Below, piece after piece: positions 2,042 to 22,390 of a stretch of DNA of 35,229 bases (position 1 is the stretch's first letter; the number at the start of each line of letters is the position of its first letter). A program made the translations under genes and the position numbers. Source of the stretch: Klebsiella pneumoniae (lineage in GTDB: Bacteria; Pseudomonadota; Gammaproteobacteria; Ga0077536); the NCBI GenBank assembly GCA_945876945.1, contig CAMCQE010000026.1:1-35229 (forward strand). The letters run 5' to 3'. The notes beneath the pieces were generated by a model, which was not told the DNA's origin, searched no databases, and worked only from the letters and a program-made list of their open reading frames with translations.

Positions 2042-3997
2042 ATGGACATCCAGAGTTTTGGCCGCACTCCCCGCGAGGCTGATCGTCTCTACCGCAAGCA
2101 GGTGGAGCGCGCGTGGCTGACGCTGGTCGAGCGTGGCGGCGTGGTGGATCCGAATCTGCGCGAGGTGGTGCGGGAGTCCTGGCTGCGCTGTCTGGCGATG
2201 GGGGTCGCGCCGGTCGCGCAGCGCCCAAGCCAACGGGCGGGCACCACGCTCGAGCAACTGCGCGACCACAACAGCGAGCTTTTGCGCGCCTTCCAGCACA
2301 CCTGGCGGGTGCTGGGCGACATTCTCTCCGACACCCAAAGTTGCCTCATCATCGCCGACGCCAGCGGCACGATGCTGGATATTTGCGGCAGCCCCACGGT
2401 GGTCGACCGTGGCGCGCGCGATTGCGTCTCGCCGGGTTACGAATGGAGCGAGCAGAGCGGCGGCACCAACGCTATTGGCACGGCGATCGCGCGCAACGCA
2501 CCGGCCGAAGTTCACAGCGCCGAGCACCTGCTGGCGGTGGCTAAAATCTGGAGCTGTTCGGCGGCGCCGGTGCGCGACGCGGTGGACGGCCATCTGGTGG
2601 GCGTGGTGGATGTGACCAGCTTCGGCGACAGCCACCAGCAGCACTGCCTCGCGCTCGCCGTGACGGCAGCCCATCAAATTGAAGAAACCCTGAACTCCCG
2701 CGAACTCGCCCGCTCGGTGCAGCTACTGCACTGGTATCAGCAACAGACCTCCCGGCGGGGGCTGCAGGCGCTGGTGTTGCTCGACCGGAAAGGCCGGGTG
2801 CTGGCGGCCAATGAGCTGGCGCGGGCCTTGTTCGCCGGCGCGCCGGAGGCCACCCCGCTGGCGCGCGGCCGGCAGTTCCTGCAGGTCAGTCGCGAGCCCG
2901 AACTCAAACATCTCATCGCCGCCCTCCCCCCGCGCACGCGGGCGCTGGCGCTGGAGCCTTATGGCCCGCGCGGCCAAGGCTGGGAGGGCGGCTTGCTGGT
3001 CCTCGAGCCTCGGCGCGAGGTCGGCCAGTTGCGGTCCAGACCCGCCCCGGCCCCGGCGCCGAATGCCTTCTCCGGCATCATCGGTGTTCATCCGCAACTG
3101 CTGGACGCCAAACGCCGCGCGGCGCGGATGGCGCGCGCGTCTGCGCCGGTCCTGTTGCTGGGCGAGCCAGGGGTCGGCAAGCAGCGTTTCGCTCGCGCCA
3201 TTCACGAGAGTTCCGCCGTTGCGGCCGGGCCGTGGCACAGCCTGCGCTGTCGCACTTTCACCCCCGAGCAGCTCGCCATCGAGCTGTTCGGCGACGAGGT
3301 CAGCGGTCGGCTTGGCCGCTTGCAGGAAGCCGACGGCGGCACTTTGTTTCTCGACGACATCGACGCCCTGCCCCTGTCCGCCCAGCTCGGACTGGTGCGC
3401 GCGCTGCAAGACAACGTGGTGTTGCGAGTGGGGGGACAGCGCGAGTACCCGGTGCGGGTCCGCCTCGTTGCGGGCACCCAAAGCAAGTTAAACGAGGCCG
3501 TGGCGGCCGGCCGCTTTCGGCTCGACCTCTTTTATCGCCTGAAGGTGTTTGGGCTGCGCTTGCCAGCCTTGCGCGACCGCCTGAGTGATCTGCCGCTGCT
3601 GGCCCATCGTCGCCTGCTAGCACTCGAGGCCCGCTACGGGCTCGGCCCGCGCCAGCTCTCGCTCGCCTTGCAGGCAACGCTGACCCACTTCCGCTGGCCC
3701 GGGAATGTGTATGAGCTGCACAACCTGCTTGAGGCGATGTATCTGCAAAGCGAGAGCAGCACCCTGACCGAGGCTGATTTGCCGGAAGAGTACCGGCCGC
3801 AGTTGGGGCTGTTGGCGTCTGCGACGGATCAACATGAGCACAGCATCAGCGGGCTTGAGCGCAGCGCGATCGAAGCCGAACTGCTGCGGCAGGGCGACAA
3901 CCTGTCTGCCGTCGCCCGCCGTCTGGGGATCTCCAGAAGCACGCTCTATCGCAAGATGAAGCGCTACGGCTTGGCGGGCGCGCCTTCGGCAGACTGA
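2042..3997 (+). CDS. AcoR-like GAF/AAA+/Fis-HTH transcriptional regulator lacking the GAFTGA motif
   Basis: About 651 residues from the ATG at 2042; a TTG at 2006 would add 12 residues but would move the start nearer the palindrome. Domain order: N-terminal region like AcoR (RESWLRC near residue 45), a GAF sensor domain (about 65-220, with SEQSGGTNAIGTAI), an AAA+ domain (about 340-560) and a Fis-type HTH at the C-terminus (NLSAVARRLGISRSTLYRKM). Walker A is GEPGVGK (about 373) and Walker B is GGTLFLDDID (about 432). Between ELFG and the Walker B block the normal GAFTGA loop is absent: the sequence runs ELFGDEVSGRLGRLQEADGG. That loop contacts sigma-54, so this protein probably does not activate sigma-54 promoters in the standard way and may act more like TyrR. 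Ligand unknown. Confidence 0.88.
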   Translation: MDIQSFGRTPREADRLYRKQVERAWLTLVERGGVVDPNLREVVRESWLRCLAMGVAPVAQRPSQRAGTTLEQLRDHNSELLRAFQHTWRVLGDILSDTQSCLIIADASGTMLDICGSPTVVDRGARDCVSPGYEWSEQSGGTNAIGTAIARNAPAEVHSAEHLLAVAKIWSCSAAPVRDAVDGHLVGVVDVTSFGDSHQQHCLALAVTAAHQIEETLNSRELARSVQLLHWYQQQTSRRGLQALVLLDRKGRVLAANELARALFAGAPEATPLARGRQFLQVSREPELKHLIAALPPRTRALALEPYGPRGQGWEGGLLVLEPRREVGQLRSRPAPAPAPNAFSGIIGVHPQLLDAKRRAARMARASAPVLLLGEPGVGKQRFARAIHESSAVAAGPWHSLRCRTFTPEQLAIELFGDEVSGRLGRLQEADGGTLFLDDIDALPLSAQLGLVRALQDNVVLRVGGQREYPVRVRLVAGTQSKLNEAVAAGRFRLDLFYRLKVFGLRLPALRDRLSDLPLLAHRRLLALEARYGLGPRQLSLALQATLTHFRWPGNVYELHNLLEAMYLQSESSTLTEADLPEEYRPQLGLLASATDQHEHSISGLERSAIEAELLRQGDNLSAVARRLGISRSTLYRKMKRYGLAGAPSAD

Positions 3998-6510: not shown

Positions 6511-6945
6511 CTAGCGGCGATTGACCATCCAGGCCGAGAAGCCGTGCAGAAAAGCGCGAAACGCGTCGAGATGCTCCGCCGGAAAGTGATAGCGAGACGG
6601 CGCATGGTCGAGCACGCGTTCAAAACATTCCAGCCATTCACGCCGGCGGTCTTCGTTGATGGCAAACGGCAGATGGCGGGCGCGCATCATGGGATTGCCG
6701 TGACGCTCGTGATAGCGCGGCGGGCCGCCCAGCAGCCCGACGAAAAACGCCGCCGACCGGCGCGACGCGGCCACCATATCTGCCGGAAACAGCGCGCGGA
6801 GTTCGGGCGAGCCCCGGTCGAGCTCCAGATAAAAATCTTCCAGCATGCGTTCGATATTCGCTTCGCCCATCACCGCAAACACTTCTTTGGGCGGCGGCGG
6901 CACCGCGCCGGGATTCATCTGCGGGACGTAAATCTCGTTATCCAT
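6511..6945 (-). CDS. Group II truncated haemoglobin-like protein
   Basis: A 144-residue small globin. Consistent with a 2-over-2 group II globin are a Tyr at the B10-like position (Y39 in LEDFYLEL), the segment RSAAFFVGLLGGPPRYHERHG, the proximal His H91 in RARHLPFAI, and Trp104 (G8-like) in REWLECFERV. Such proteins bind O2 or NO through haem and serve in NO or peroxide chemistry; some databases mislabel them as bacitracin-resistance proteins. The ATG is only 6 bp after the stop of the outer-membrane efflux gene, so it looks like the last gene of the RND operon. It ends with TAG. An N-terminal extension of about 20 Pro-rich residues precedes the globin core. Confidence 0.85.
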   Translation of the reverse strand: MDNEIYVPQMNPGAVPPPPKEVFAVMGEANIERMLEDFYLELDRGSPELRALFPADMVAASRRSAAFFVGLLGGPPRYHERHGNPMMRARHLPFAINEDRRREWLECFERVLDHAPSRYHFPAEHLDAFRAFLHGFSAWMVNRR

Positions 6946-6951
6946 GACCGG

Positions 6952-8376
6952 TTACCAGCTACCGCCCAGCGCGCGAATCAAGGCCACCGTAGTTTGCAGC
7001 CGGGCGCCTCGCAGTTGCTGCTGCTGACGCGCGGTGGCCAGCGTCTGGCGGCGGGCGTCAATCACATCCAGATAGCCCACCGCGCCGGCGTCATAGCGCT
7101 GGCTGGCGATGCCGAGCGCGCGCTCGGCCGCGTCGTGGGTGGCGGCCACCGTATCGGTTTGCTCGGCCAGCGTGCGCAAGCCCACCAATGCGTCTTCCAC
7201 TTCGCCGAACGCGCGGAGCACGCTTTGGCGGTACAGGGCAGTTTCTTCCATGAGCGCCGCTTCAGCCCGTTTGAGATTGGCGCGATTGCGTCCGCCGTCA
7301 AACAGCGGCGCGGTTAGCAGCGCGCCGGCCAGCGGGCCGAGCGACCAGGTGCGGGCCGACCATGAAAACAGCTCACCAATATCGCCCGAGGCAAAGCCGG
7401 CGTCGGCGGTCAGATTGAGCACCGGGTAGAAGGCGGTCTTGGCCACCCCGATGCGGGCGTTGGCAGCAGCCAGCCGATTTTCGGCGGCGGCAATATCCGG
7501 ACGGCGTTCCAGCAGGGTCGATGGCAAACCTGCGGGCACGCTCGGCGGCCGGGCGGCCAGCGCCGCCGGTGCCAATTTGAAACTGGCCGGCGCCTTGCCG
7601 AGCAAAATCGCGAGCGCGTGGCTGAGTTCGGCGCGGGTGCGGGTGAGCCCAATCTGCTCGGTGCGGGTGGCTTGAAGTTCGGCTTCGGCCCGCGCCAGAT
7701 CGAGATCGCTGATGTCGCCCGCATTGGCCTGCGTGCTCAACAGGCGCACCGCGTCACGTCGCAGCTGCACCGCTTCTGTCAGCACGCCGAGTTCGGCATC
7801 CGTCTGGCGGAGCAGGAAGTAGGTGCGGGCGACCTCGGCTTGCAGCGCCAGCTGCAGGGATTGGTAGAGCGCTGCGGCCGCTGCGCTGTCGGCCCGCGCG
7901 GCCTGCACGCTGTCGCGCACGCGGCCAAAGAGGTCGATTTCATAACTGGCAGCCACGCCGAAGCGGTAGCGCTCGAAGGAAGGGAAATCGCCATCGGCCC
8001 GTGCCAGCGGGCCCACGTTCTCGGCCTTGCCGCCGGCCGCGCCGGCGCCGAAATTGAGCCGGGGCAGGCGTTCGGCGGCGGCGGTGTTGACCAGCGTGCG
8101 CGCCTGCTCCAGGCGGGCCGCAGCGGCCATGAGATCCTGATTGGCCGCGCCGGCGTCCGTCACCAGTGCGTTCAGCGTGCTGTCGTCAAATACCGTCCAC
8201 CACGCGCCGCGCGCGCTGGCCTCGGCGGGCGCCGCTTCCTGCCACTGCCCGTCGACGCTCGGCGGCGCTTCCTGCCACTCGGCGGGCAGGTCGACCTTGG
8301 GTGGGGTGAGCGGTGGTGCCATCGAGCACGCGTTGAGCGTGGCGATCAGGCCCAGGCTGATAACGCGCCAGTTCAT
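6952..8376 (-). CDS. RND efflux outer-membrane lipoprotein, NodT/OprM family
   Basis: A 474-residue outer-membrane channel subunit of a tripartite pump. It has a lipoprotein signal with lipobox LNAC (Cys17). Two copies of the outer-membrane efflux (TolC-type) domain follow, with typical segments such as RRPDIAAAENRLAAANARIGVAKTAFYP (shown here only as a landmark near residue 300) and a C-terminal SQRYDAGAVGYLDVIDARR. The start ATG overlaps the pump stop as ATGA (8373-8376). It should form the trimeric exit duct for the pump and adaptor encoded upstream. Confidence 0.95.
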   Translation of the reverse strand: MNWRVISLGLIATLNACSMAPPLTPPKVDLPAEWQEAPPSVDGQWQEAAPAEASARGAWWTVFDDSTLNALVTDAGAANQDLMAAAARLEQARTLVNTAAAERLPRLNFGAGAAGGKAENVGPLARADGDFPSFERYRFGVAASYEIDLFGRVRDSVQAARADSAAAAALYQSLQLALQAEVARTYFLLRQTDAELGVLTEAVQLRRDAVRLLSTQANAGDISDLDLARAEAELQATRTEQIGLTRTRAELSHALAILLGKAPASFKLAPAALAARPPSVPAGLPSTLLERRPDIAAAENRLAAANARIGVAKTAFYPVLNLTADAGFASGDIGELFSWSARTWSLGPLAGALLTAPLFDGGRNRANLKRAEAALMEETALYRQSVLRAFGEVEDALVGLRTLAEQTDTVAATHDAAERALGIASQRYDAGAVGYLDVIDARRQTLATARQQQQLRGARLQTTVALIRALGGSW

Positions 8377-11300
8377 ACGCCGGGCTCGGAAGTGGGCGGG
8401 ACGATGGCGGCGGGCTTGGGGCGTTTGGCCAGCAACACGTAGAACACCGGGGTGAGGAAGAGGCCAAATAACGTCACCCCGACCATGCCCGAGAACACTG
8501 CGATGCCCATCGCACGCCGCATTTCCGCTCCCGCGCCGTGCGAAAGCACCAGCGGCAGCACGCCCATGATGAACGCGATGGAGGTCATGAGAATCGGCCG
8601 CAGGCGCATGCGGCAGGCTTCGAGCGCCGCCTTGACCGGCCCGATGGAGGGGTCGTGCAGTTCGCGCTCGCGGGCGAACTCCACAATAAGAATCGCGTTT
8701 TTACACGCCAGCCCCATCAGCACAAACAGCGCAATCTGCGTGAAGATGTTTTTGTCGCCGCCGGTATACATCACCCCGCCAATCGCAAACAGCAGGCACA
8801 GCGGCACGATAAGAATAATGGCGAGCGGCAGGCGGAAACTCTCGTACAACGCGGCCAGCACCAGCATCACCAGCAGCGCGCACAGCGGATACACCAGCAC
8901 CGCCGAATTGCCGGCGAGAATTTCCTGATAGGTCAGTTCGGTCCACTCGTAGGCGATGCCGCGCGGCAGGGTCTCGCGCAGGATCTCTTCCATTTTTGCC
9001 CGCGCCTCGCCCGAGCTCACGCCGGGTGCCGCCGCGCCGTTGATGTCGGCTGAAGGGAACGCGTTGTAGCGCAGCGCGCGGTCGGGTCCGAAGGACGGCT
9101 GCATTTTCACCAGCGCACCGAGCGGCACCATTTCGCCCTGTGCGTTGCGGGTTTTGAGCTGGGCCACGTCTTCCGCCTGATGGCGATATTGGCCATCGGC
9201 CTGCACCACCACGCGATAGGTTTTGCCAAAGCGGTTGAAGTCGTTGACGTAGAGCGAGCCGAGATAAATCTGCATGGTCGCAAAGAGCTCGTTCAGATTG
9301 ACGCCCATCTGCTTGGCTTTTTCGCGGTCGATGGCGGCGTTCAATTGCGGCACGTTGATCTGGTAGCTGGAGAACACGCCGGCCAGCTGCGGCGTTTGCC
9401 AGGCTTTCATGAGCGCCGCCTGCAAGGACTGATACAGCACCTCGTCGCCGAGCCCGGCCTGATCTTCCAGCTGCAGCTTGAAGCCACCAATCGCGCCCAG
9501 GCCGTCTACCGGCGGCGGCGTGAAGAAAGCAATAAAAGCGCCCTGGATGCCGAAGTACTGCTGGTTCAGATTCTGCGCGATCGCGGCCGCCGAGAGTGCC
9601 GGCGTGGTGCGATTCTCGAAGTCGTCGAGATTGATGAACAGCAGCCCCGCGTTGGACGAATTCATGAAGCCGTTAATCGACAGGCCCGGGAAGCTCACCA
9701 CGTTTTTCACGCCCGGCGTCTTGAACGCGATCTCGGTCATGCGCTTGAGAATTTTGTCCGTGCGCTCGAGTGAGGCGGCGTCTGGTAGCTGCGCGAAGCC
9801 AATCAGGTACTGCTTGTCCGGCGGCGGAATGAAGCCGCCGGGGACTTTCATGAAGGCCTGCCAGGTGGCGAACAGCAGGCCCAGATACACCAGCACCAGC
9901 AGAAATTTCACCCGCATGAAGCGCGCGACCACCCACGCATAGCCGCCGGCGCTGCGGTGGAAAACCGCATCGAACCCCCGGAAAAACCAGCCGAACAGCC
10001 TATCCATCACGCGCGTTAGCCAGTCTTTGGGGGCGTCGTGTCCGCGTAGCAGCAGCGCCGCCAGCGCGGGTGACAGCGTGAGCGAGTTAATCGCGGAGAT
10101 CACCGTGGAGATGGCAATCGTCAGCGAGAACTGGCGGAAGAACTGCCCGGTCAGGCCGCTGATGAAGGCAATGGGCACAAACACCGCGCAGAGCGTGAGC
10201 GCGATGGCGATGATGGGCCCGGAGACCTCCTGCATCGCCCGGTAGGACGCGGCCTTGGGTGTCAGCCCCATTTCGATATTCCGCTCAACGTTCTCCACCA
10301 CCACGATGGCGTCGTCCACCACGATGCCAATCGCCAGCACCAGCCCGAACAGCGTCAGCGTGTTGATGGAAAAGCCGCAGAGCGCCATCACGGCGAAGGT
10401 GCCGATGATCGACACCGGCACGGCGGCCAGCGGGATGATCGACGCGCGCCAGGTTTTGAGAAACACGATCACCACGGCCACCACCAGCAGCACCGCCTCG
10501 ATCAGGGTCTCAATCACGGCGCGGATGGATTGACGGACGAACTGCGTGGGGTCGTAGACGATTTCGTATTTCACGCCCTGCGGGAAGTCCTTTTTCATGT
10601 CTTCCATCATGTCGCGGACCTGATTCGACAGGTCGATGGCGTTCGACAGCGGCGCCTGAAACACGCCGAGCGCGACGGCCGGTTTGTTGTCGAGCAGGCT
10701 GTGGGTCGAATAATCGCTGGCCGCGAGTTCGATCCGCGCCACATCGCGCAGGCGTAGCACGCCGCCTTGCGCGGAAGTCCGCAGGATGATGTCGCCAAAT
10801 TCGGACTCGGTCGTGAGCCGGCCCTGCGTGTTGACCGAGAGCTGGAATTCGGTGCCGGCCGGCGCCGGCGGGGCGCCGATCACCCCGGCCGCCACCTGCT
10901 GGTTTTGCTCCTGAATGGCGGCCACCACATCGGTGGCGGTCAGGTCGCGCGCGGCGAGTTTGGTGGGATCTAGCCACATGCGCATCGCGTAATCGCCGCC
11001 GCCAAACACCTGCACATCCCCCATGCCCTGAATGCGCCGCAGCTTGTCGCGCACGTTCAGCACCGCGTAGTTGCGCAAGTAAAGTTCGTCGTAACGGGAA
11101 TCGCTGGAGAGCAGGTGCACCACCATCGTGAGGTTGGGCGACTGCTTCTGGGTAATCACGCCAATCTGGCGCACTTCGGCCGGTAGGCGCGGCAAGGCGC
11201 GTTGCACGCGGTTCTGGACCTGGGTTTCGGCCAAGTCCGGATCGGTGCCAATTTTGAAGGTGACCGTCACGTTCAGCACGCCGTCGGTCGTCGCCTGCGA

Positions 11301-11543
11301 CGAGAGATACAGCATGTTCTCCACGCCGTTGATCTGTTCTTCGATAGGCGCAGCGACGGTTTCGGCAATGACTTTGGGATTGGCGCCCGGATAGGTCGCG
11401 GTGACGACCACCGCCGGCGGCACCACGTCCGGGTATTCGGAGACCGGCAAAAACGGCAGCGCCATGAGGCCGGCGACAAAAATGCCGATCGACAGCACGG
11501 CCGCGAATACCGGCCGGTCAATGAACGTCCGGGACAGGCTCAT
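8373..11543 (-). CDS. RND multidrug efflux permease, HAE1 family (MexF/AcrB-like)
   Basis: A 1056-residue inner-membrane proton-driven pump, close to the usual length. It starts MSLSRTFIDRPVFAAVLSIG, a hallmark of HAE1 pumps, and the first periplasmic loop resembles MexF. The TM4 proton-relay pair is present (GIVVDDAIVVVENVERN), and the TM10 lysine is in MGLACKNAILIVEFARE. Twelve membrane segments and two large porter loops are apparent. HAE1 pumps export antibiotics, solvents, dyes or metabolites; the substrate is not predictable here. It begins 7 bp after the adaptor gene stop, and its own stop overlaps the channel gene. No dedicated regulator gene adjoins the operon. Confidence 0.96.
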   Translation of the reverse strand: MSLSRTFIDRPVFAAVLSIGIFVAGLMALPFLPVSEYPDVVPPAVVVTATYPGANPKVIAETVAAPIEEQINGVENMLYLSSQATTDGVLNVTVTFKIGTDPDLAETQVQNRVQRALPRLPAEVRQIGVITQKQSPNLTMVVHLLSSDSRYDELYLRNYAVLNVRDKLRRIQGMGDVQVFGGGDYAMRMWLDPTKLAARDLTATDVVAAIQEQNQQVAAGVIGAPPAPAGTEFQLSVNTQGRLTTESEFGDIILRTSAQGGVLRLRDVARIELAASDYSTHSLLDNKPAVALGVFQAPLSNAIDLSNQVRDMMEDMKKDFPQGVKYEIVYDPTQFVRQSIRAVIETLIEAVLLVVAVVIVFLKTWRASIIPLAAVPVSIIGTFAVMALCGFSINTLTLFGLVLAIGIVVDDAIVVVENVERNIEMGLTPKAASYRAMQEVSGPIIAIALTLCAVFVPIAFISGLTGQFFRQFSLTIAISTVISAINSLTLSPALAALLLRGHDAPKDWLTRVMDRLFGWFFRGFDAVFHRSAGGYAWVVARFMRVKFLLVLVYLGLLFATWQAFMKVPGGFIPPPDKQYLIGFAQLPDAASLERTDKILKRMTEIAFKTPGVKNVVSFPGLSINGFMNSSNAGLLFINLDDFENRTTPALSAAAIAQNLNQQYFGIQGAFIAFFTPPPVDGLGAIGGFKLQLEDQAGLGDEVLYQSLQAALMKAWQTPQLAGVFSSYQINVPQLNAAIDREKAKQMGVNLNELFATMQIYLGSLYVNDFNRFGKTYRVVVQADGQYRHQAEDVAQLKTRNAQGEMVPLGALVKMQPSFGPDRALRYNAFPSADINGAAAPGVSSGEARAKMEEILRETLPRGIAYEWTELTYQEILAGNSAVLVYPLCALLVMLVLAALYESFRLPLAIILIVPLCLLFAIGGVMYTGGDKNIFTQIALFVLMGLACKNAILIVEFARERELHDPSIGPVKAALEACRMRLRPILMTSIAFIMGVLPLVLSHGAGAEMRRAMGIAVFSGMVGVTLFGLFLTPVFYVLLAKRPKPAAIVPPTSEPGV

Positions 11544-11550
11544 CGGGTGC

Positions 11551-13302
11551 TCAATGCGTCAAGGCGGCCAGCGCCTTCACCGAGCGCGGCCAGGCCTGCA
11601 CTGCCTTGCGAAGTTCCGGACTTAACTCGGCAACGGCGGCCTGCGCCTGGGCGGCATCCGGGTAGTGGCCGGTCACCACGACGAACCAGGGTTTGTCGGC
11701 GCGGCGGGTTTCCAGAATGGCGGCTTTATCGGTCAGCGCATGGTGTTTCAGAAAGCGCTCGCTGCCCTCACGGTCAGCACCCGCGAGCAATTGCAGCGCA
11801 TAGCTCTCGGGGGCTTGCTGACGCAGCCAGTCGGCGGAGTAGGGATTCGGCGCGGCGCTCGTCGGCGCGGCGTCGGCGGCGTTGGCGTCCGCCGCCTTGG
11901 TGCTCGCCGCAGGCTTCGGTGCGCTGGTAGCTGGCGGCGCTTCAACGGCTGGTTTGGGGGCTTCAACAGGGGCTTTCGGTGCCTCGGCGGTGGGCTCGGG
12001 CGTTTCCGCCGCCGCCTTGGGTGCCGCGGCCGTTGCCGACAGCGCTTCGGCGCTGGCGGGTGCGGCGTTGGCCTTGGCCGCAGGCGTCTCAGCGGTGGCC
12101 GCCGGGGCGTCTTTGCTCGGGGCAACCGGGGCGGCGGAGAGGTCCGCAGGCGCCATGTCGACCACGGATGGCGTCACCGGCGAGCCTGGCCGCACGCGCT
12201 GCAGGCCGTCGATCACAATTTGCTCGCCGGCCTTGAGCCCGCTTTCCACAACGCGTAATCCAGCGGTCGCGCGGCCGGGTTTGATCTCGCGGTACTGGGC
12301 GTTTTTATCGGCGTCCAGCACCAGCACAAAACGCTTGCTTTGGTCGGTGCCGATCGCGCTGTCCTGCACCATCACCACCCGCCGCGTGCCACTGCCCCCG
12401 GCCAGGCGCACGCGGGCATACAGCCCCGGCGTGAAGCGCCGGTCGGGATTGGGCAATTCGGCCCGCAGGCGAACGGTGCCGCTCGCCATGTTGATCTGGT
12501 TATCCACGAACTGGAGGGTGGCGTTGTGGGGCGTGCCCTCCTCGTTCGCCAGACCCACCTGAACTTTCAGGCCGCGGCTGCGGTCCTTGCCGATGTACTT
12601 CAGGTAGGCGGCTTCATCGGCTTCGAAGCTGACGTAAATGGGATCGAGCGCCACCAGCGTGCTCAGGCGGGGCGAATCCGGCGCGTCGCCGCGGATGAGG
12701 TTGCCGATGGTGAGTTCGTCTTTGCCCATGCGACCCGCCACCGGCGCGGTGATGCGGGTGTAGCCAAGGTCGACACGGGCGGCGTCAATGCGCGCGGCAT
12801 CGGCCTTCCGCGCCGCCTCGAGCGTGGCAACCGCCGCGTTCGCGGCCTCGAACTCGCGCCGCGAGGTGGCGCGCGAGGGCAGCATTTTGCGTTGGCGGGC
12901 GAGTTCCAGTTCGGCCAGCGCGAGCTGCGCGCGGGTATTGCCTGCGGCGGCTTCTGCTTCGGCCAAACGGGCCGCGAAGGGGGCGGGGTCGATCTCGAAC
13001 AACAGCGTGCCGGCGGCGACTTCATCCCCCGGCGTGAAATGAATGGCCTGCAGATAGCCGTTCACCCGCGCGCGCAGGTCAACGTGCTGGGTGGCCTCGA
13101 AGCGGCCCGCAAATTCGTCGGTCTCGGCGACTTCGCGTTCAATCGCCGCGGCTACGGTGACAGGCGGTGGGGCGGACGGCATCATGCCGGGGTCACCGGC
13201 GGGCGGGGCTTTGCCGCAGGCGACCAGCGCCATCGTGAGGACCCACGGCAGGGCGCGAGCGCCGGCCAACACGGAGCGCGGGATCGCGCGGGTTGCGGTC
13301 AT
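11551..13302 (-). CDS. RND periplasmic adaptor (membrane fusion lipoprotein) fused to a C-terminal SPOR domain
   Basis: 583 residues from the ATG at 13302, clearly longer than the usual 370-400 for an adaptor. A lipoprotein signal ends in LVAC (Cys29). The normal adaptor follows: barrel-sandwich hybrid (about 73-107), an alpha-helical hairpin (about 110-165), a second sandwich half with ITAPVAGRMGKDELTIGN, then beta-barrel and membrane-proximal domains to about residue 380. Next comes a roughly 100-residue Ala/Pro/Glu/Lys-rich linker (about 383-485, DNA 11848-12156). The last 98 residues (11554-11847) look like the SPOR domain of DamX: YALQLLAG, then ETRRADKPWFVVVTGHYPD and AVAELSPELR. SPOR domains bind peptidoglycan lacking stem peptides, enriched at division sites. 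An AAGG lies nine bases before the ATG; the frame is open further upstream but without a better start. Confidence 0.9.
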   Translation of the reverse strand: MTATRAIPRSVLAGARALPWVLTMALVACGKAPPAGDPGMMPSAPPPVTVAAAIEREVAETDEFAGRFEATQHVDLRARVNGYLQAIHFTPGDEVAAGTLLFEIDPAPFAARLAEAEAAAGNTRAQLALAELELARQRKMLPSRATSRREFEAANAAVATLEAARKADAARIDAARVDLGYTRITAPVAGRMGKDELTIGNLIRGDAPDSPRLSTLVALDPIYVSFEADEAAYLKYIGKDRSRGLKVQVGLANEEGTPHNATLQFVDNQINMASGTVRLRAELPNPDRRFTPGLYARVRLAGGSGTRRVVMVQDSAIGTDQSKRFVLVLDADKNAQYREIKPGRATAGLRVVESGLKAGEQIVIDGLQRVRPGSPVTPSVVDMAPADLSAAPVAPSKDAPAATAETPAAKANAAPASAEALSATAAAPKAAAETPEPTAEAPKAPVEAPKPAVEAPPATSAPKPAASTKAADANAADAAPTSAAPNPYSADWLRQQAPESYALQLLAGADREGSERFLKHHALTDKAAILETRRADKPWFVVVTGHYPDAAQAQAAVAELSPELRKAVQAWPRSVKALAALTH

Positions 13303-13427: not shown

Positions 13428-14681
13428 ATGACCCCGATAACGCCTTTCGGTATCCCGCTGGAATTTGTGCTCTTTGCCGCGACCTTGCTGGGCGTGGCGC
13501 TGTTCCATCATCACACCCTCGCTGTGGCGCTCACCGGGCTGGCGACATTGATGGGCTACAAGCTGCTTTTCACCGGCTTTCACGCCGGCCCCGGCGTGCC
13601 GGGACTCATCGCCCACCTACAGCACGAGTGGGTGACGCTGGCCAATCTGTTTGGCCTGCTCATGGGTTTTGCGCTGCTGGCGCGCCATTTCGAGAAAAGC
13701 CATGTGCCGGTAATCCTGCCCAAATATCTGCCCGACGACTGGAAGGGCGCCTTTGTGATGCTGGTGATGGTGTTTGTGATGTCGAGTTTTCTCGACAACA
13801 TCGCCGCCGCCCTGATTGGCGGCGCGATGGCGCATCAGTTGTTTCGCGCACGGGTGCACATTGGTTATCTGGCAGCGATTGTTGCGGCCTCGAATGCCGG
13901 CGGTTCGGGCAGCGTGGTGGGCGATACCACCACCACCATGATGTGGATCGACGGCGTGGCGCCGACCGATGTCCTTACTGCCTACACGGCCGCTGTGGTG
14001 GCGTTGGTGGTGTGCGGCATTCCGGCGTCCATCCAGCAGCAGCGCTACTCGCCCATTCTTAAAGATGCCCATGCCCACACCCATGTGGACTGGACGCGAT
14101 TATTCATCGTGGCCTTCATGCTGGTGGCCGCCATGCTCACCAATATCGTGGTGAATACCCACTACACCGAGCAGGCGGGCGATTTCCCCTGGCTCGGCGC
14201 GGCGGTGTGTGTCGCGCTATTGCTTACCGTGAAGTTACGCCGTCCGGACTGGGAGCTGCTGCCCGAAACCGCCATGGGCACCGTGTTTCTGCTGTCGCTG
14301 GTCACTGCTGCCTCGCTGATGCCGGTGGAAGAACTACCCACGGCCTCCTGGCACACGGCGCTTGGCCTGGGCTTTGTGTCGGCGGTGTTCGACAACATTC
14401 CGCTTACCGCACTCGCGCTGAAGCAGGGCGGCTACGACTGGGGCGTGCTCGCTTACGCGGTGGGCTTCGGCGGGTCAATGTTGTGGTTCGGCTCCAGCGC
14501 CGGCGTCGCCCTGACCAACCTCTATCCGGAGGCGCGCTCGGCCGGTCTTTGGCTGCGCCATGGCTGGCACGTGGCGCTCGCTTACGTGCTGGGCTTCGCC
14601 GTGATGATGGCCGTCGTCGGCTGGGAGCCGCACGAGCGGCATAAGGCGCCGGCGGCAACGCCAGCCAGCCTCGCGCGCTAA
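13428..14681 (+). CDS. NhaD/ArsB-type (ion transporter superfamily) permease
   Basis: A 417-residue polytopic membrane protein with about ten to twelve hydrophobic segments. Paired family motifs are visible in each half: VMSSFLDNIAAALIGGAMA and GGSGSVVGDTTTTMMW in the first, VSAVFDNIPLTALALKQ and VGFGGSMLWFGSSAGVALTN in the second. The inverted-repeat arrangement with conserved Asp/Asn pairs is that of the ion transporter superfamily, which includes NhaD sodium/proton antiporters, ArsB and SLC13-type carriers. A His-rich loop (DAHAHTHVDW) sits mid-protein. Sodium/proton exchange is the best guess, but an organic anion is possible. The ATG has AGGA about nine bases upstream. It is a single gene, divergent from the efflux operon. 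Confidence 0.8.
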   Translation: MTPITPFGIPLEFVLFAATLLGVALFHHHTLAVALTGLATLMGYKLLFTGFHAGPGVPGLIAHLQHEWVTLANLFGLLMGFALLARHFEKSHVPVILPKYLPDDWKGAFVMLVMVFVMSSFLDNIAAALIGGAMAHQLFRARVHIGYLAAIVAASNAGGSGSVVGDTTTTMMWIDGVAPTDVLTAYTAAVVALVVCGIPASIQQQRYSPILKDAHAHTHVDWTRLFIVAFMLVAAMLTNIVVNTHYTEQAGDFPWLGAAVCVALLLTVKLRRPDWELLPETAMGTVFLLSLVTAASLMPVEELPTASWHTALGLGFVSAVFDNIPLTALALKQGGYDWGVLAYAVGFGGSMLWFGSSAGVALTNLYPEARSAGLWLRHGWHVALAYVLGFAVMMAVVGWEPHERHKAPAATPASLAR

Positions 14682-14798: not shown

Positions 14799-14867
14799 AT
14801 GTCCGAGCGCTCTCTGGACCTCCATCGTCATGTCGCCGCCGCGCGTCCGGGGGAGCGGCGGGCGTGA
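14799..14867 (+). CDS. 22-codon leader ORF overlapping the kinase start
   Basis: ATG at 14799 is preceded by CAGGA with eight-base spacing. The peptide starts MSERSLDLHRHV and is basic, with several Arg and two His residues. Its TGA (14865-14867) overlaps the kinase GTG start (14864-14866) as GTGA. Such an arrangement usually means translational coupling, so the leader may set how often the kinase is made. No similarity to a known leader peptide is recognised, and it has no runs of one amino acid that would suggest attenuation. The kinase also has its own purine-rich GGGGGAG upstream of the GTG, so the leader could be dispensable. Confidence 0.5.
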   Translation: MSERSLDLHRHVAAARPGERRA

Positions 14868-17575
14868 GCGAGAGTTCGCCGGGAGACGCGCCGCCCGACC
14901 TCGCCTGGCGCAACGCGCCGCGCTATCAGCCGGATGCGCCGGTGCTGGCGGCGCTGGATCAAAAGCTGGATATCCTGCGCAATCTCGACACCCCCGTGTG
15001 GGTGTTTGACGTTGAACGTTGCCAGTGCCTGTGGGCCAATGCGCCGGGGCTCGAGGTATGGGGCGCCGACAGCGTCACCGCGCTTCAGCAGCGCGACATC
15101 GCCTCGACGCAGTCCGAGGCCACCTACGCGCTGGTCAACGACTACCTTCGCCGCGTGCTCGCTGGCGAGAAAATCACGCAATGGCTGACGCTCGACATCC
15201 AGGGCAAAACGCGTCGTTTTCGCCACAGCTATCACGCCCTCGCGCTAGCCGATGCGCGGCAGGTGCTGTTTGTCGAAGCCAAGCCCGAGCCCTCGGCCGA
15301 AGAAATGCTGGCGTTTGCTTCGGACTACACGCTGACCATTGGGCTCTATGCGCTGGATGGTCAGTTGATCAGCAGCAATCCCGCGTTTCGCCAGCTCGCC
15401 GCCCACAACGCGATGGACAATCTCAACGCGTTATTGCCGCCGGACAGCGGTCTCGCCGACTGGCCACGCCAACTGGGCGAGCAAACCCAGTTGCGCTTCG
15501 AAACCAATTTCGAGACCGGCCACGGACTGGGTCACTTCCGGGGCGAGTTGCGCCGGGTAGTCACCCAGAGCGGCGAGGTCCGCGCGCTGCTCACGCTCGA
15601 TAACCTCACCGAGCAGCGCATCAAGCAGACCGAGCAGGCGCTGCAGGAAAATCGCGCCCGCACGGAGCGCCTGCTGGACAGCGCTGAGGTCGCCACCGTG
15701 GTGCAGGATTTCCAGGCCCAAGTGGTGAAAGCCGACCGCCGGTGGTGGGCGATGCTGGGTTACGGACCGGACGCTCTCGCGCTCACGCCGGCCAGTTTGC
15801 TGGCGCTGATTCATCCGGATGACAGGCCCTTGCTGTTACAGGAAACGGCGCGGCTGATGGGCGGCGAAATCGTCCACTGGGCGCTCGAATACCGGCTGCG
15901 CACGGCCGACGAGAGCTGGCGCTGGGTGCTGGACCGCAGCCTTGTGACCCGCCGGGGCCGGGACGGCGCGCCGCTAGAAATCGGCGGCATCCATCTGGAT
16001 GTGCACGCTCGAAAAGTGGCCGAGTTGGCACTGGCCGGCAGCGAGTTGCGGCATCGGGCGATGCTCAACGCGCTGCCCGATTTGATGGCCGCCTTCGACT
16101 TGGAAGGGCGGATAGTCGACCTCCATATGTCGTCCCCCGAAGACTGGGGGTTTCCGACCGAGCGGGCCATCGGCCGCAATCTCCACGACATTCTGCCGCC
16201 GGAAGTTGCGGCCAGACTGGGTCCGCTACAGGTCCAGGTGCTGTCCTCCGGGCGGATGGTGCAGGGTGACTACGTTATCGAGCATCCCCGCCTTGGCGCG
16301 CGCCATCGCGAGTTCCGCATGGTGCCCTACGGCCCCGACCGAACCCTCGCGCTGGTGCGCGACGTCACCGATCGCCATCTCGCCGAGCAGCAGCACCAGC
16401 AAACCCTCAAGCAACTCCAGCAATCGCAAAAAATGGAAGCGCTCGGCCAGCTGACCGGCGGTATCGCGCACGATTTCAACAACATTCTGGCCAGCGTCAT
16501 CGGCTACACCTGGCTGGCCCAGCAGCACCCCTTGGTGGCGACCGATCCGAAGTTGAACGAGTACCTGAAAGTGATCGCGAGCGGCAGCGAACGCGGCCGC
16601 GATCTGGTGCAGAAGATGCTCACCTTCAGCCGGCGCTCTGAACCCGCGGCAGTGTCTGCGATCGATCCCCTGCCGGTGGTAAAAGAAGCTTTCCTGATGC
16701 TGAAGTCGGTGATCCCCGCGACGCTCGACCTCCAGCTGGCACTGCCCCCCGCCACGCCGGCGGTCGCGGTCGAGGCAGTGGAGCTTCATCAGGTGCTGGT
16801 GAATCTGGTTATCAACAGCCGGGACGCCATGCCGGAACACGGCACGATCACGCTCAGCATTGTGTCTGGTGCCCGGCCCGGCCACTTTTGCGCCAGCTGC
16901 TCGCAGGCGGTGCCCGCCGATGCCCTCGTCTTTGCCGTGCGCGACACCGGCAGCGGCATCCCGGCGGCGGCGCGTGACCGCATCTTCGACCCCTTTTTCA
17001 CCACCAAGGCGGTGGGCGCCGGCACCGGCATTGGCCTGTCGGTGGTCGATGGCATTGTTCACCGCTACGGCGGCCACATTCTCGTCACCAGCGAACCCGG
17101 CGCCGGCACGCTGATCGAAATCGTCTTGCCGATCGCAGAGCCGCTCGCGACCACAAGCGCGGGCAGCGCGCCGAGTCTCGCGCGGCGGAGTGCCGGTGGC
17201 ACCTTGATGGTGGTGGACGACGAACTCTGGGTGGGCGCTTTCCTGCGCGAGTTGCTGGAGGAAGACGGTTACACGGTGGAAGTTTTCACGCAGGGCAAAG
17301 CGGCGGTCGCAGCACTGCGGGAAGCGCCGACGCGCTACGCGGCGGTGGTGACCGACCTCACCATGCATGAGATGACCGGGCTCGAGCTCGCGACCGCCGT
17401 CCATCGCAGCCTTCCGAGGCTACCCGTGTTGCTGTGTACCGGCGCGGGCGACATGCCGAACCCCGCAGCCCTCGCGGCGGCCGGCGTGCAGCACGTGTTT
17501 CCCAAGCCCATTCCCGTCGACCAGCTCCGTACCGTGTTGGCCGAACTGTTACTGCCGTCCGAGCCCGTCGTATGA
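14864..17575 (+). CDS. PAS-domain hybrid histidine kinase with C-terminal receiver (copy 1)
   Basis: A 903-residue soluble sensor kinase without membrane segments. Order: four PAS-like domains (about 40-140, 150-250, 265-385, 395-505); a HisKA-type dimerisation region with phospho-acceptor H536 in GGIAHDFNNILAS; HATPase with N-box VNLVINSRDAMPEHG, G1 DTGSGIP and G2 GTGIGLSVVDG; then a receiver domain with acidic DDE and phospho-acceptor D831 in VVTDLTMHEMTG. A CASC pair (C676, C679) is inserted between N-box and G1. The start is GTG at 14864, backed by GGGGGAG and overlap with a leader ORF. The stop overlaps the following symporter gene (ATGA), which suggests a shared job, such as sensing the transporter's substrate or state. 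No separate response regulator with output domain is nearby. Confidence 0.93.
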   Translation: MSESSPGDAPPDLAWRNAPRYQPDAPVLAALDQKLDILRNLDTPVWVFDVERCQCLWANAPGLEVWGADSVTALQQRDIASTQSEATYALVNDYLRRVLAGEKITQWLTLDIQGKTRRFRHSYHALALADARQVLFVEAKPEPSAEEMLAFASDYTLTIGLYALDGQLISSNPAFRQLAAHNAMDNLNALLPPDSGLADWPRQLGEQTQLRFETNFETGHGLGHFRGELRRVVTQSGEVRALLTLDNLTEQRIKQTEQALQENRARTERLLDSAEVATVVQDFQAQVVKADRRWWAMLGYGPDALALTPASLLALIHPDDRPLLLQETARLMGGEIVHWALEYRLRTADESWRWVLDRSLVTRRGRDGAPLEIGGIHLDVHARKVAELALAGSELRHRAMLNALPDLMAAFDLEGRIVDLHMSSPEDWGFPTERAIGRNLHDILPPEVAARLGPLQVQVLSSGRMVQGDYVIEHPRLGARHREFRMVPYGPDRTLALVRDVTDRHLAEQQHQQTLKQLQQSQKMEALGQLTGGIAHDFNNILASVIGYTWLAQQHPLVATDPKLNEYLKVIASGSERGRDLVQKMLTFSRRSEPAAVSAIDPLPVVKEAFLMLKSVIPATLDLQLALPPATPAVAVEAVELHQVLVNLVINSRDAMPEHGTITLSIVSGARPGHFCASCSQAVPADALVFAVRDTGSGIPAAARDRIFDPFFTTKAVGAGTGIGLSVVDGIVHRYGGHILVTSEPGAGTLIEIVLPIAEPLATTSAGSAPSLARRSAGGTLMVVDDELWVGAFLRELLEEDGYTVEVFTQGKAAVAALREAPTRYAAVVTDLTMHEMTGLELATAVHRSLPRLPVLLCTGAGDMPNPAALAAAGVQHVFPKPIPVDQLRTVLAELLLPSEPVV

Positions 17576-19658: not shown

Positions 19659-22390
19659 AGAATTTGCCGGCAAGGGATGCTGCCGGAACCGACGATTGGC
19701 GTAGCGCGCGCCGTTACCAGCAGAACGATCCGGCCGACCGACTCGTGCTCGACGACCTCGAGCGGCAGTTCAGCGGTCTGAAATTTATCGATACCCCGGT
19801 GTGGGTGTTCGACCCCGAGCGCTGCCAGTGTCTGTGGGCCAATCCCTCCGGGCTTGAGATCTGGCGGGCGCCGAGCGTGGTGGAGCTGCAAGGTCGCGAT
19901 GTCGCCGCCACCCAGTCCGAAGCCGTCTACACCTTGCTCAACGACTACCTCCGGCGGGTGGAAGAGGGCGAGCACATTGCGGTGTGGGTAACGCTCGATC
20001 CGCGCGGCACCACCCGGCGCTTCTACCAAAGCCATCATCTGGTGACGCTGGCCGATGGCCGCAAGGCGCTGCTGATTGAAGCGCAGGCCGAGCCGCCCGC
20101 CGAGGAAATGCTGGCCTTTGCCTCCGACTACACGCTGACCATTGGCCTCTACGAGCTGGACGGCACGCTGGTCAGCGGCAATCCCGCCTTTCGCCGCTTG
20201 GGCGAGCGCCACGAACTCGATAATCTGAACCTGCTGATGCCGACCGACGGCAGCCTGCTCGCCTGGCCGCGCTTGCTGGGCGAGCAGAGCCAGCTGGTCT
20301 TTGAGCGGGAAATCGATACCGCCCGCGGGCGCGGCCTGTATCGCTGTGAACTACGACGGGTTTTTACCAAGGACCGCCATCCCCGCGCGATCCTCACGCT
20401 GTACGACCTCACTGAGCAGCGGATCCGGCAATCCGAGCAGGCCTTGCGCGACAACCAGCTGCGTACCGAGCACCTCCTCGACAGCGCCGAAGTCGCGACC
20501 TACGTTTGGGACGTTGCCCGCAACGTGTTCGCGCTGGACCATCGCTAGTGGTCAATGCTGGGTTATTCGCTGAACGCTTTTGAATTCACGCTCGATGTCT
20601 GGGCCGATCTCCTGCACCCGGAAGATTCGGCCGCGCTACAGGAAGCCGCTGCCCGGCTGCTGTCGGGTGAACTCACTCACTGGAACAACGAATACCGCCT
20701 GCGCACCGCCGACGGCAGCTATCGCTGGATCCTCGACCGGGGTCTGGTGACGCGGAAGACCCCCGACGGCAAGCCCCTGGAAGTCGGCGGCATTCATCTC
20801 GACGTGCACCCGCAAAAGCTGGTGGAAAGCGCACTCGGCGCCAGCGAAATGCGCCAGCGCGCCTTGCTTGGCGCGGTCCCGGACCTGCTGTGCATTCACG
20901 AGCGCGATGGCCGCCTGATGGACTTCCACGCCGCGCGCCCCGAAGACTGGCTGCTCCCTACGGGCGCGATCGGCATGACCATGGCTGAAATGTTGCCGCC
21001 TGATGCGGTGGCCGAGCTGAAATCGGCGCAGGCCGAGGTGTTGGGACGGCGGCGGAGCGTACAGGGGGAGTATCGGGTTGAGCACCCGCAGAAAGGCCAG
21101 CAGTTTCGCGAGTACCGGATGGTGCCCTATGGCGAGCACCAGACCCTGACCCTGGTGCGCAACGTCACCGACCGCCATGTCGCCGAGGGACAGCGCCTGC
21201 ATGCGCTCAAGCAACTCCAGCAGGCGCAGAAGATGGACGCCCTCGGCCAACTGACCGGCGGCATCGCGCACGATTTCAATAATATTCTGGCCAGCATGAT
21301 GGGCTATGCCTGGCTGGCGCGGCAGTTAAAGCCGGTGAAAGAGGACGAGAAAGCCGCCGAGTATCTGAGCATCATCAGCGCCGCCGGCGAACGCGGGCGA
21401 GAACTGGTCCAGAAGATGACGAGCTTTAGCCGGCGCGCTCCCGCGACACCGGGGGTGCAGGCGGTGGAGCCGCTGCCGGTGCTGGAAGATGCCTTCCGGA
21501 TGCTGAAATCCATTATTCCCTCGCGGCTCAATCTCACCCTGGCACTCGACCCGGCGCTGCCGAGGATCTCGGTTGAGCCCATCGACCTCCATCAGGTCTT
21601 GGTGAATCTGGTGGTCAATAGCCGCGACGCCACGCCCGGTCATGGCGAGATTGCGGTGTCGATGACACAGCGACGCTACGCCGATCGTTTTTGCGCCAGC
21701 TGTCACGAGAGCCTCAACGACGAGTATGTGACGCTCGCCGTGGTCGACTCCGGCAGCGGCATTCCGGCGGCCACGCTGGAGCGCATTTTCGACCCGTTTT
21801 TCACCACCAAAGAGGTGGGCGCGGGCACTGGCATTGGCTTGTCGATGGTGGACGGGATCGTCCATCGCCACGGCGGACATCTGCTGGTGTCCAGTGAGCC
21901 TGGCGTGGGGACGCAGTTCGAAATTCTGCTGCCGGGTGTAGCGGTTCCCGCCCCTCCGGAAGCGCCAGGCGGCGCGCCGGTGGCTGATCCGGCCGGCGAG
22001 CGGCTGGCCCGCGGCAAGCTGCTGGTGGTGGACGATGAACCCTGGGTGGCCGCTTTCCTGAGTGAGATGCTGCGGCTCGAGGGGTACACGGTGGAAGTCT
22101 TCGATAACGGACGCGATGCCCTCGCCGCGCTGGCCTCAGCCGCCCCGCCGTTTGACGCCGTCGTGTCGGATTTCATGATGCCGCACATGACCGGGCTGGA
22201 ACTGGCGAGCGCGATTCAGTCCCGCTATCCGGGTTTGCCCGTGGTGTTGTGCACCGGAGCCGGCGAGCCGCCCGACGAGCAGGCGCTGCAGCTGGCCGGG
22301 GTTCGTCGTCTTTTCCCGAAACCGGTGCCGGTCGAAGAACTCCAGCAGTTGTTGATGACGATGCTGGCGCTCCAAGGCACGAGCGCCTGA
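19655..22390 (+). pseudogene. PAS-domain hybrid histidine kinase (copy 2), interrupted by an in-frame amber codon
   Basis: A paralogue of the kinase at 14864, with the same domain order. The reading frame runs 19655-22390 (911 residues) except for TAG at 20546-20548, codon 298, inside the third PAS domain. The aligned position in copy 1 is Trp (RRWWAML versus R-stop-WSML), so a TGG to TAG change explains it. Downstream features are intact: H539 in GGIAHDFNNILAS, N-box VNLVVNSRDATPGHG, CASC (C680, C683), G1 DSGSGIP, G2 GTGIGLSMVDG, and receiver D839 in VVSDFMMPHMTG. The start ATG overlaps the GST stop. An ATG at 20555, six bases after the TAG and in frame, could restart translation and give a separate 611-residue kinase. 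It may therefore be a split gene, a recent mutation or a sequencing error. Confidence 0.85.

Follow-up and report, generated by a model that had tools for sequence, protein, structure and literature searches.

An RND efflux adaptor with a C-terminal DamX-type SPOR domain, predicted from sequence and structure models in a single environmental genus of gammaproteobacteria

The stretch of DNA analysed here (the window, 35,229 nucleotides, contig CAMCQE010000026.1) carries a gene that, by its sequence, encodes a lipoprotein adaptor (MexE/OqxA type) for a tripartite resistance-nodulation-division (RND) pump, with a SPOR domain at the C-terminus of the adaptor. The setting is one genus of environmental gammaproteobacteria, the protein is the connector of a drug-efflux-type pump, and the case looks like the entry of a domain from a division protein into a transport system. 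We think it rather probable (about 0.6) that the pump is tethered by its SPOR tail to denuded peptidoglycan at the septum. The frame runs from an ATG at 13302 to a stop at 11551, encodes 583 amino acids (aa) without internal stops, and is laid out as follows.

11551..13302, minus strand: RND periplasmic adaptor gene with C-terminal SPOR, 583 aa (open reading frame, Pfam and NCBIfam matches)
13216..13302, minus strand: signal peptide and lipobox, residues 1–29, LVAC29-GK (sequence)
12145..13173, minus strand: adaptor core, residues 44–386, with barrel-sandwich, alpha-hairpin, beta-barrel and membrane-proximal domains (hidden Markov model (HMM) matches, AlphaFold2, AcrA/MexA structures)
11848..12138, minus strand: linker, residues 389–485, rich in Ala (42%) and Pro (19%), disordered by prediction, different among orthologues
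11554..11847, minus strand: conserved C-terminal block, residues 486–583, SPOR with the lead-in YSADWL (orthologue alignment, fold prediction)
11602..11811, minus strand: Pfam SPOR match, residues 498–567, with Q504, R534 and W539 inside it and W571 and R573 just after

An earlier note on this DNA had proposed a DamX-like SPOR domain at about residues 486–583, behind a linker of about 100 residues, and the searches of the tail bear this out. The SPOR HMM PF05036 matches residues 498–567 with an E-value of 5.1e-8 and 33.6 bits against a gathering cut-off of 21, and a sequence search of the PDB returned a single match, the SPOR domain of E. coli DamX (2LFV, E 9.3e-6). Within the genome, only DamX was found by phmmer with the tail. 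The DamX profile PRK10905 matches residues 390–576 weakly (E 0.0035, 16.5 bits against 256), and by these scores the tail reads as a DamX-type domain on a protein that is not itself a DamX.

The predicted fold of the C-terminus points in the same direction. AlphaFold2 run on residues 483–583 with two orthologues gave a model with a mean predicted local distance difference test score (pLDDT) of 77.7, the best of five (the remaining four were less confident, at 51–65), with the order beta-alpha-beta-beta-alpha-beta. In a full-length prediction from 13 sequences the core is confident, residues 387–484 are disordered and the tail is folded from about residue 490 (pLDDT mostly 77–92), in keeping with the proposed bounds of linker and domain. 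Foldseek placed DamX SPOR 2LFV first (E 4e-6), and its top eight also include the SPOR domains of RlpA (6i05/6i09), DedD and CwlC at weaker E-values of 0.03–0.09. By VIA, 2LFV scored Z 9.1 (root-mean-square deviation (rmsd) 2.6, 86 aligned residues), followed by RlpA at 6.9, CwlC at 6.2 and DedD at 5.9, where clearly unrelated structures lie at Z of about 4 or lower. The modelled tail thus has the RNP-like SPOR fold, matching 2LFV, 6I05, 6I09, 1X60 and 6ZTG. It should be noted that residues 80–171 of 6ozd, a Burkholderia putative exported protein with no SPOR in its title, also resemble the SPOR model (Z 7.9, rmsd 2.9, 82 aligned) and by Z rank behind DamX alone.

The residues that contact glycan in the SPOR domains of DamX and RlpA were compared by alignment with DamX, in which the conserved Gln and a basic patch are represented by Q351, W416, R380 and K418, the likely glycan contacts; of these, Q351 and W416 are tied to localisation at the septum, and the basic patch involves R380 and K418 (PMC6895207). 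Adaptor Q504, R534, W571 and R573 align to DamX Q351, R380, W416 and K418, and W539 to DamX W385. In five of the five fusion proteins described below, the residues at Q351, R380, W385 and W416 are identical to those of DamX and K418 is replaced by Arg, so that by alignment the conserved Gln and the basic patch are present in every one. The adaptor tails have Ala or Gly in place of DamX S354, a residue reported to function without its side-chain hydroxyl, and, like the genome's own DamX, Phe in place of DamX W364. The retained contacts are consistent with septal localisation or wall anchoring.

The remainder of the protein was described in the earlier note as a complete lipoprotein core of a tripartite-pump adaptor, and this description holds on the RND_mfp score, the fold match and the lipobox. 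The adaptor scores 238.5 bits with TIGR01730 RND_mfp (curated cut-off 94.9), HlyD_D23 (Pfam) matches residues 70–296 (E 1.6e-11), and AcrA and MexA structures match the core at Z 20–25, with 25.5 for AcrA 9a2v and 22.8 for MexA 2v4d against modelled residues 44–386. The closest named profile is the MexE model NF045904 (E 2.4e-99, 332.9 bits against an equivalog cut-off of 714), and the OqxA model gives E 2.3e-81 and 273.7 bits against 835; since both scores lie under the curated cut-offs, the adaptor is of the broad MexE/OqxA type and is neither named protein. With MexE and OqxA it has in common the lipoprotein nature, the barrel-sandwich core and an operon with an OqxB/AcrB-type permease and a NodT-type outer-membrane factor. 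It differs from them by a C-terminal extension of about 200 residues, made up of the linker and the SPOR domain; the MexE match stops at residue 389 and the OqxA match at 385.

The other two pump components lie directly downstream on the same strand, as ACR_tran and OEP/NodT genes of an RND operon, with the permease starting 7 bp past the adaptor stop.

8373..11543, minus strand: RND permease, AcrB/OqxB type, 1056 aa (profile matches)
6952..8376, minus strand: outer-membrane factor, NodT type, 474 aa (profile matches)

From first to last, the compact gene row comprises the adaptor, the RND permease, the NodT-type outer-membrane factor and a bacterial globin. Because of the lipobox and the intact permease/outer-membrane factor operon, the adaptor is predicted to be periplasmic, in agreement with the proposal that a lipid-anchored adaptor would hold its SPOR domain in the periplasm, where the topology fits.

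The same architecture recurs within the genus, of which nine genomes, mostly fragmented assemblies, were sampled. The adaptor was found in six of the nine, and the linker and SPOR in five of those six. The SPOR-bearing orthologues are 89% (genome G008), 68% (G005), 64% (G007) and 68% (G002) identical to the adaptor of the window; in G007 the frame starts at a contig or locus edge, without a signal peptide. The sixth adaptor, in G001 (63%), stops where the core ends, and the permease start follows at once. That the fusion might be an assembly or frame join of an adaptor with the 3' end of a DamX gene would be hardly credible: the assembly is indeed fragmented (219 contigs), but four other genomes carry the architecture at 64–89% identity with the gene order kept, the permease starts 7 bp downstream, and the separate DamX gene lies on a different contig. 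A chance or two-gene join was rejected on the identical architecture of these four orthologues in separate genomes, and the check for a join, with five genomes in total, leaves the fusion standing as real.

None of nine orthologues (57–62% identity) drawn from three further genera in the family has the tail. In a tree of the core only, the five SPOR-bearing adaptors form one clade (100/99) with G001 as sister (98/99), and from this pattern it follows that one gain within the genus, with no loss, accounts for the distribution; the SPOR domain was, as the core tree reads, added to the adaptor once. Among 36 genomes of the family and order (10 genera), SPOR-bearing adaptors were found in the genus of the window only. 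A search of the class with the adaptor (369 genomes, the three best candidates per genome scored) gave no further fusion, and among 30 loci read in a class search with the SPOR tail, an adaptor core was present in the window's own frame only; many of the other loci show a P-loop, as DamX does. In 200 genomes of the phylum (E<=1e-75) no match entered SPOR stop-free, a 507-aa open frame in G573 being left unread, and a plasmid collection yielded one weak, unrelated SPOR-like match. Since few candidates per genome were scored in the wider searches, rare fusions elsewhere may be missed, and convergent fusions may exist in other adaptor families or phyla. The searches also turned up tandem SPOR domains of the DamX type, two matches in an apparent single frame, in several gammaproteobacterial genomes (G158:C1 351571–352173, G054:C1 1280082–1280771, G358:C73, G248:C205 and G070:C76).

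A genome-wide search gave five SPOR places, the adaptor frame being one of them; the others are DamX, RlpA, an FtsN-like and a DedD-like protein, where the names FtsN and DedD depend in part on neighbouring translations read as ArgS-, CvpA- and PurF-like. The sole other phmmer match of the tail in the genome is the DamX homologue on contig 17, the two SPOR domains being about 42% identical, and the Y/FSxxWLxxQ lead-in before the adaptor SPOR is also present in several DamX proteins of the family. The phmmer match and the common lead-in make DamX a likely donor. A SPOR tree of 30 rows and 100 columns places the adaptor SPORs together with weak support (61/0) and does not resolve DamX donorship.

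Where synonymous divergence (dS) is usable, the ratio of nonsynonymous to synonymous rates (dN/dS) indicates purifying selection on the tail: for residues 486–583 it is 0.32 between the window's adaptor and G008 (dS 0.09) and 0.22 between G007 and G002 (dS 0.47), with 0.11 and 0.10, respectively, for the core. Distant pairs give 0.32–0.47 for the block, values near saturation because dS is above 1.2. In the pair with G008 (locus L007) synonymous divergence is smaller in the SPOR block (dS 0.09) than in the core (0.24); the sample is small, and the 3' end may have recombined. Among the five orthologues the linker varies in both length and make-up, and the SPOR stays constant. In G007 (locus L009) the linker contains near-perfect 13-residue tandem repeats (ATPDAPALTPAPV), by which linker length in the fusions seems to evolve through tandem repeat expansion.

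We propose that the transport function is ordinary and MexEF/OqxAB-like and that the tail would act on the placement of the pump. The SPOR domain, on a flexible linker of about 50–100 residues, would be able to extend from the membrane-proximal end of the adaptor to the wall. Pumps of known stoichiometry, such as AcrAB-TolC, contain six adaptors, which here would give six copies of the domain. Several SPOR copies per pump would add avidity for amidase-stripped glycan strands, so that the pump would be kept at, or become concentrated at, the division site and the new poles. SPOR domains are known to bind peptide-stripped glycan, which amidases make abundant at the septum (PMC6895207). Of the known systems, DamX is the best solved match by sequence and fold and has the glycan-contact residues in common with the tail, but it is an ATPase-like/transmembrane protein, and here the SPOR sits on an efflux adaptor. 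RlpA is likewise a lipid-anchored periplasmic lipoprotein, a transglycosylase in which a SPOR domain follows other modules at the C-terminus; it differs by its catalytic DPBB domain and by having no part in transport, and a separate RlpA is encoded in the same genome. AcrA and MexA resemble the present adaptor in lying against the wall, which stabilises their assembly (PMC6570770, PMC8158685), but they contact it with their hairpin/lipoyl core and lack a conserved motif for wall binding, whereas here there is a dedicated wall-binding-type domain.

Several observations weigh against this proposal. The dN/dS of the SPOR block exceeds that of the core (0.10–0.21), which makes its constraint the weaker of the two; the block is only 45–50% identical in distant members; and G001, of the same genus, runs the same operon without SPOR, so that the tail is not essential for the pump. 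The higher dN/dS and the tailless sister species are also what would be expected of a neutral hitchhiker, in which the 3' end of a DamX gene was duplicated by accident and joined in frame, without serving any selected function. Such an origin is nevertheless very improbable, since the domain has been kept in five species across core dS of 0.24 to over 1 with intact frames and dN/dS well below 1, and its binding residues are invariant while the linker turned over. Recruitment by proteins, in which the tail, like DamX and DedD, would bind or stimulate divisome proteins or the synthases of peptidoglycan and the pump would regulate or follow division, is only slightly less improbable: just the DamX-type SPOR region is in common, and the tail has neither the ATPase-like domain nor the transmembrane segment of DamX.

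The main rival, which we regard as unlikely, is that the SPOR domain binds any denuded or glycan-rich peptidoglycan and mainly stabilises, by way of the wall, the assembly of adaptor and outer-membrane factor, without septal enrichment. Even RND adaptors that lack a SPOR domain lie against peptidoglycan (PMC6570770; PMC8158685): AcrA touches it in situ (PMC6570770), and the MexA-OprM complex is stabilised by it in pull-downs (PMC8158685). Moreover, a pump of fixed length must cross the wall all over the cell. On the other side, the SPOR domains known so far recognise denuded glycan specifically, a form concentrated at the septum (PMC6895207), and the adaptor tail retains the residues behind that specificity. 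The computed results fit both the septal tether and the general one. Going beyond the septal tether, one may imagine a division-site efflux machine, with SPOR tails delivering the pump to the constricting septum, where it would work by guarding the weakened envelope or clearing septal substrates; this is a speculative extension that we would tend to doubt, and, if true, efflux would be coupled to wall splitting and inherited at the new poles.

The statement in the earlier note that no characterised SPOR-bearing RND adaptor was known fits the open-licence PMC literature as far as titles and abstracts go: no paper on such an adaptor was found there, and the word SPOR is absent from the portions consulted of a large tripartite-pump review. 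This suggests that the arrangement is apparently undescribed within that literature, which is not proof of novelty. It bears on the placement of RND pumps in the cell and on how a fixed-length trans-envelope machine meets peptidoglycan. One operon with a wall-binding-type domain in five species and without it in the sister G001 constitutes a natural experiment, and the contrast with G001, or deletion of the tail, asks whether wall tethering alters pump placement or assembly.

As for the surroundings of the operon, an NhaD-like antiporter gene, divergent from the adaptor, starts at 13428, and a promoter scan gave a signal no better than shuffles. In G001 (locus L011) a frame resembling a LysR-type regulator lies at about 3000–3900 between the adaptor and NhaD, where the window has about 125 bp. 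Plus-strand frames opposite the adaptor (up to 325 aa) were rejected as GC-rich shadow frames, as nothing argues for their being genes. The globin gene, of bacterial truncated type, occupies 6511–6945 on the minus strand, a few bases 3' of the outer-membrane factor, and is perhaps a member of the pump operon. Two large hybrid histidine kinases are encoded close to each other on the plus strand, at 14864–17575 and 20555–22390, both with CckA- and VirA-like profiles among their best matches.
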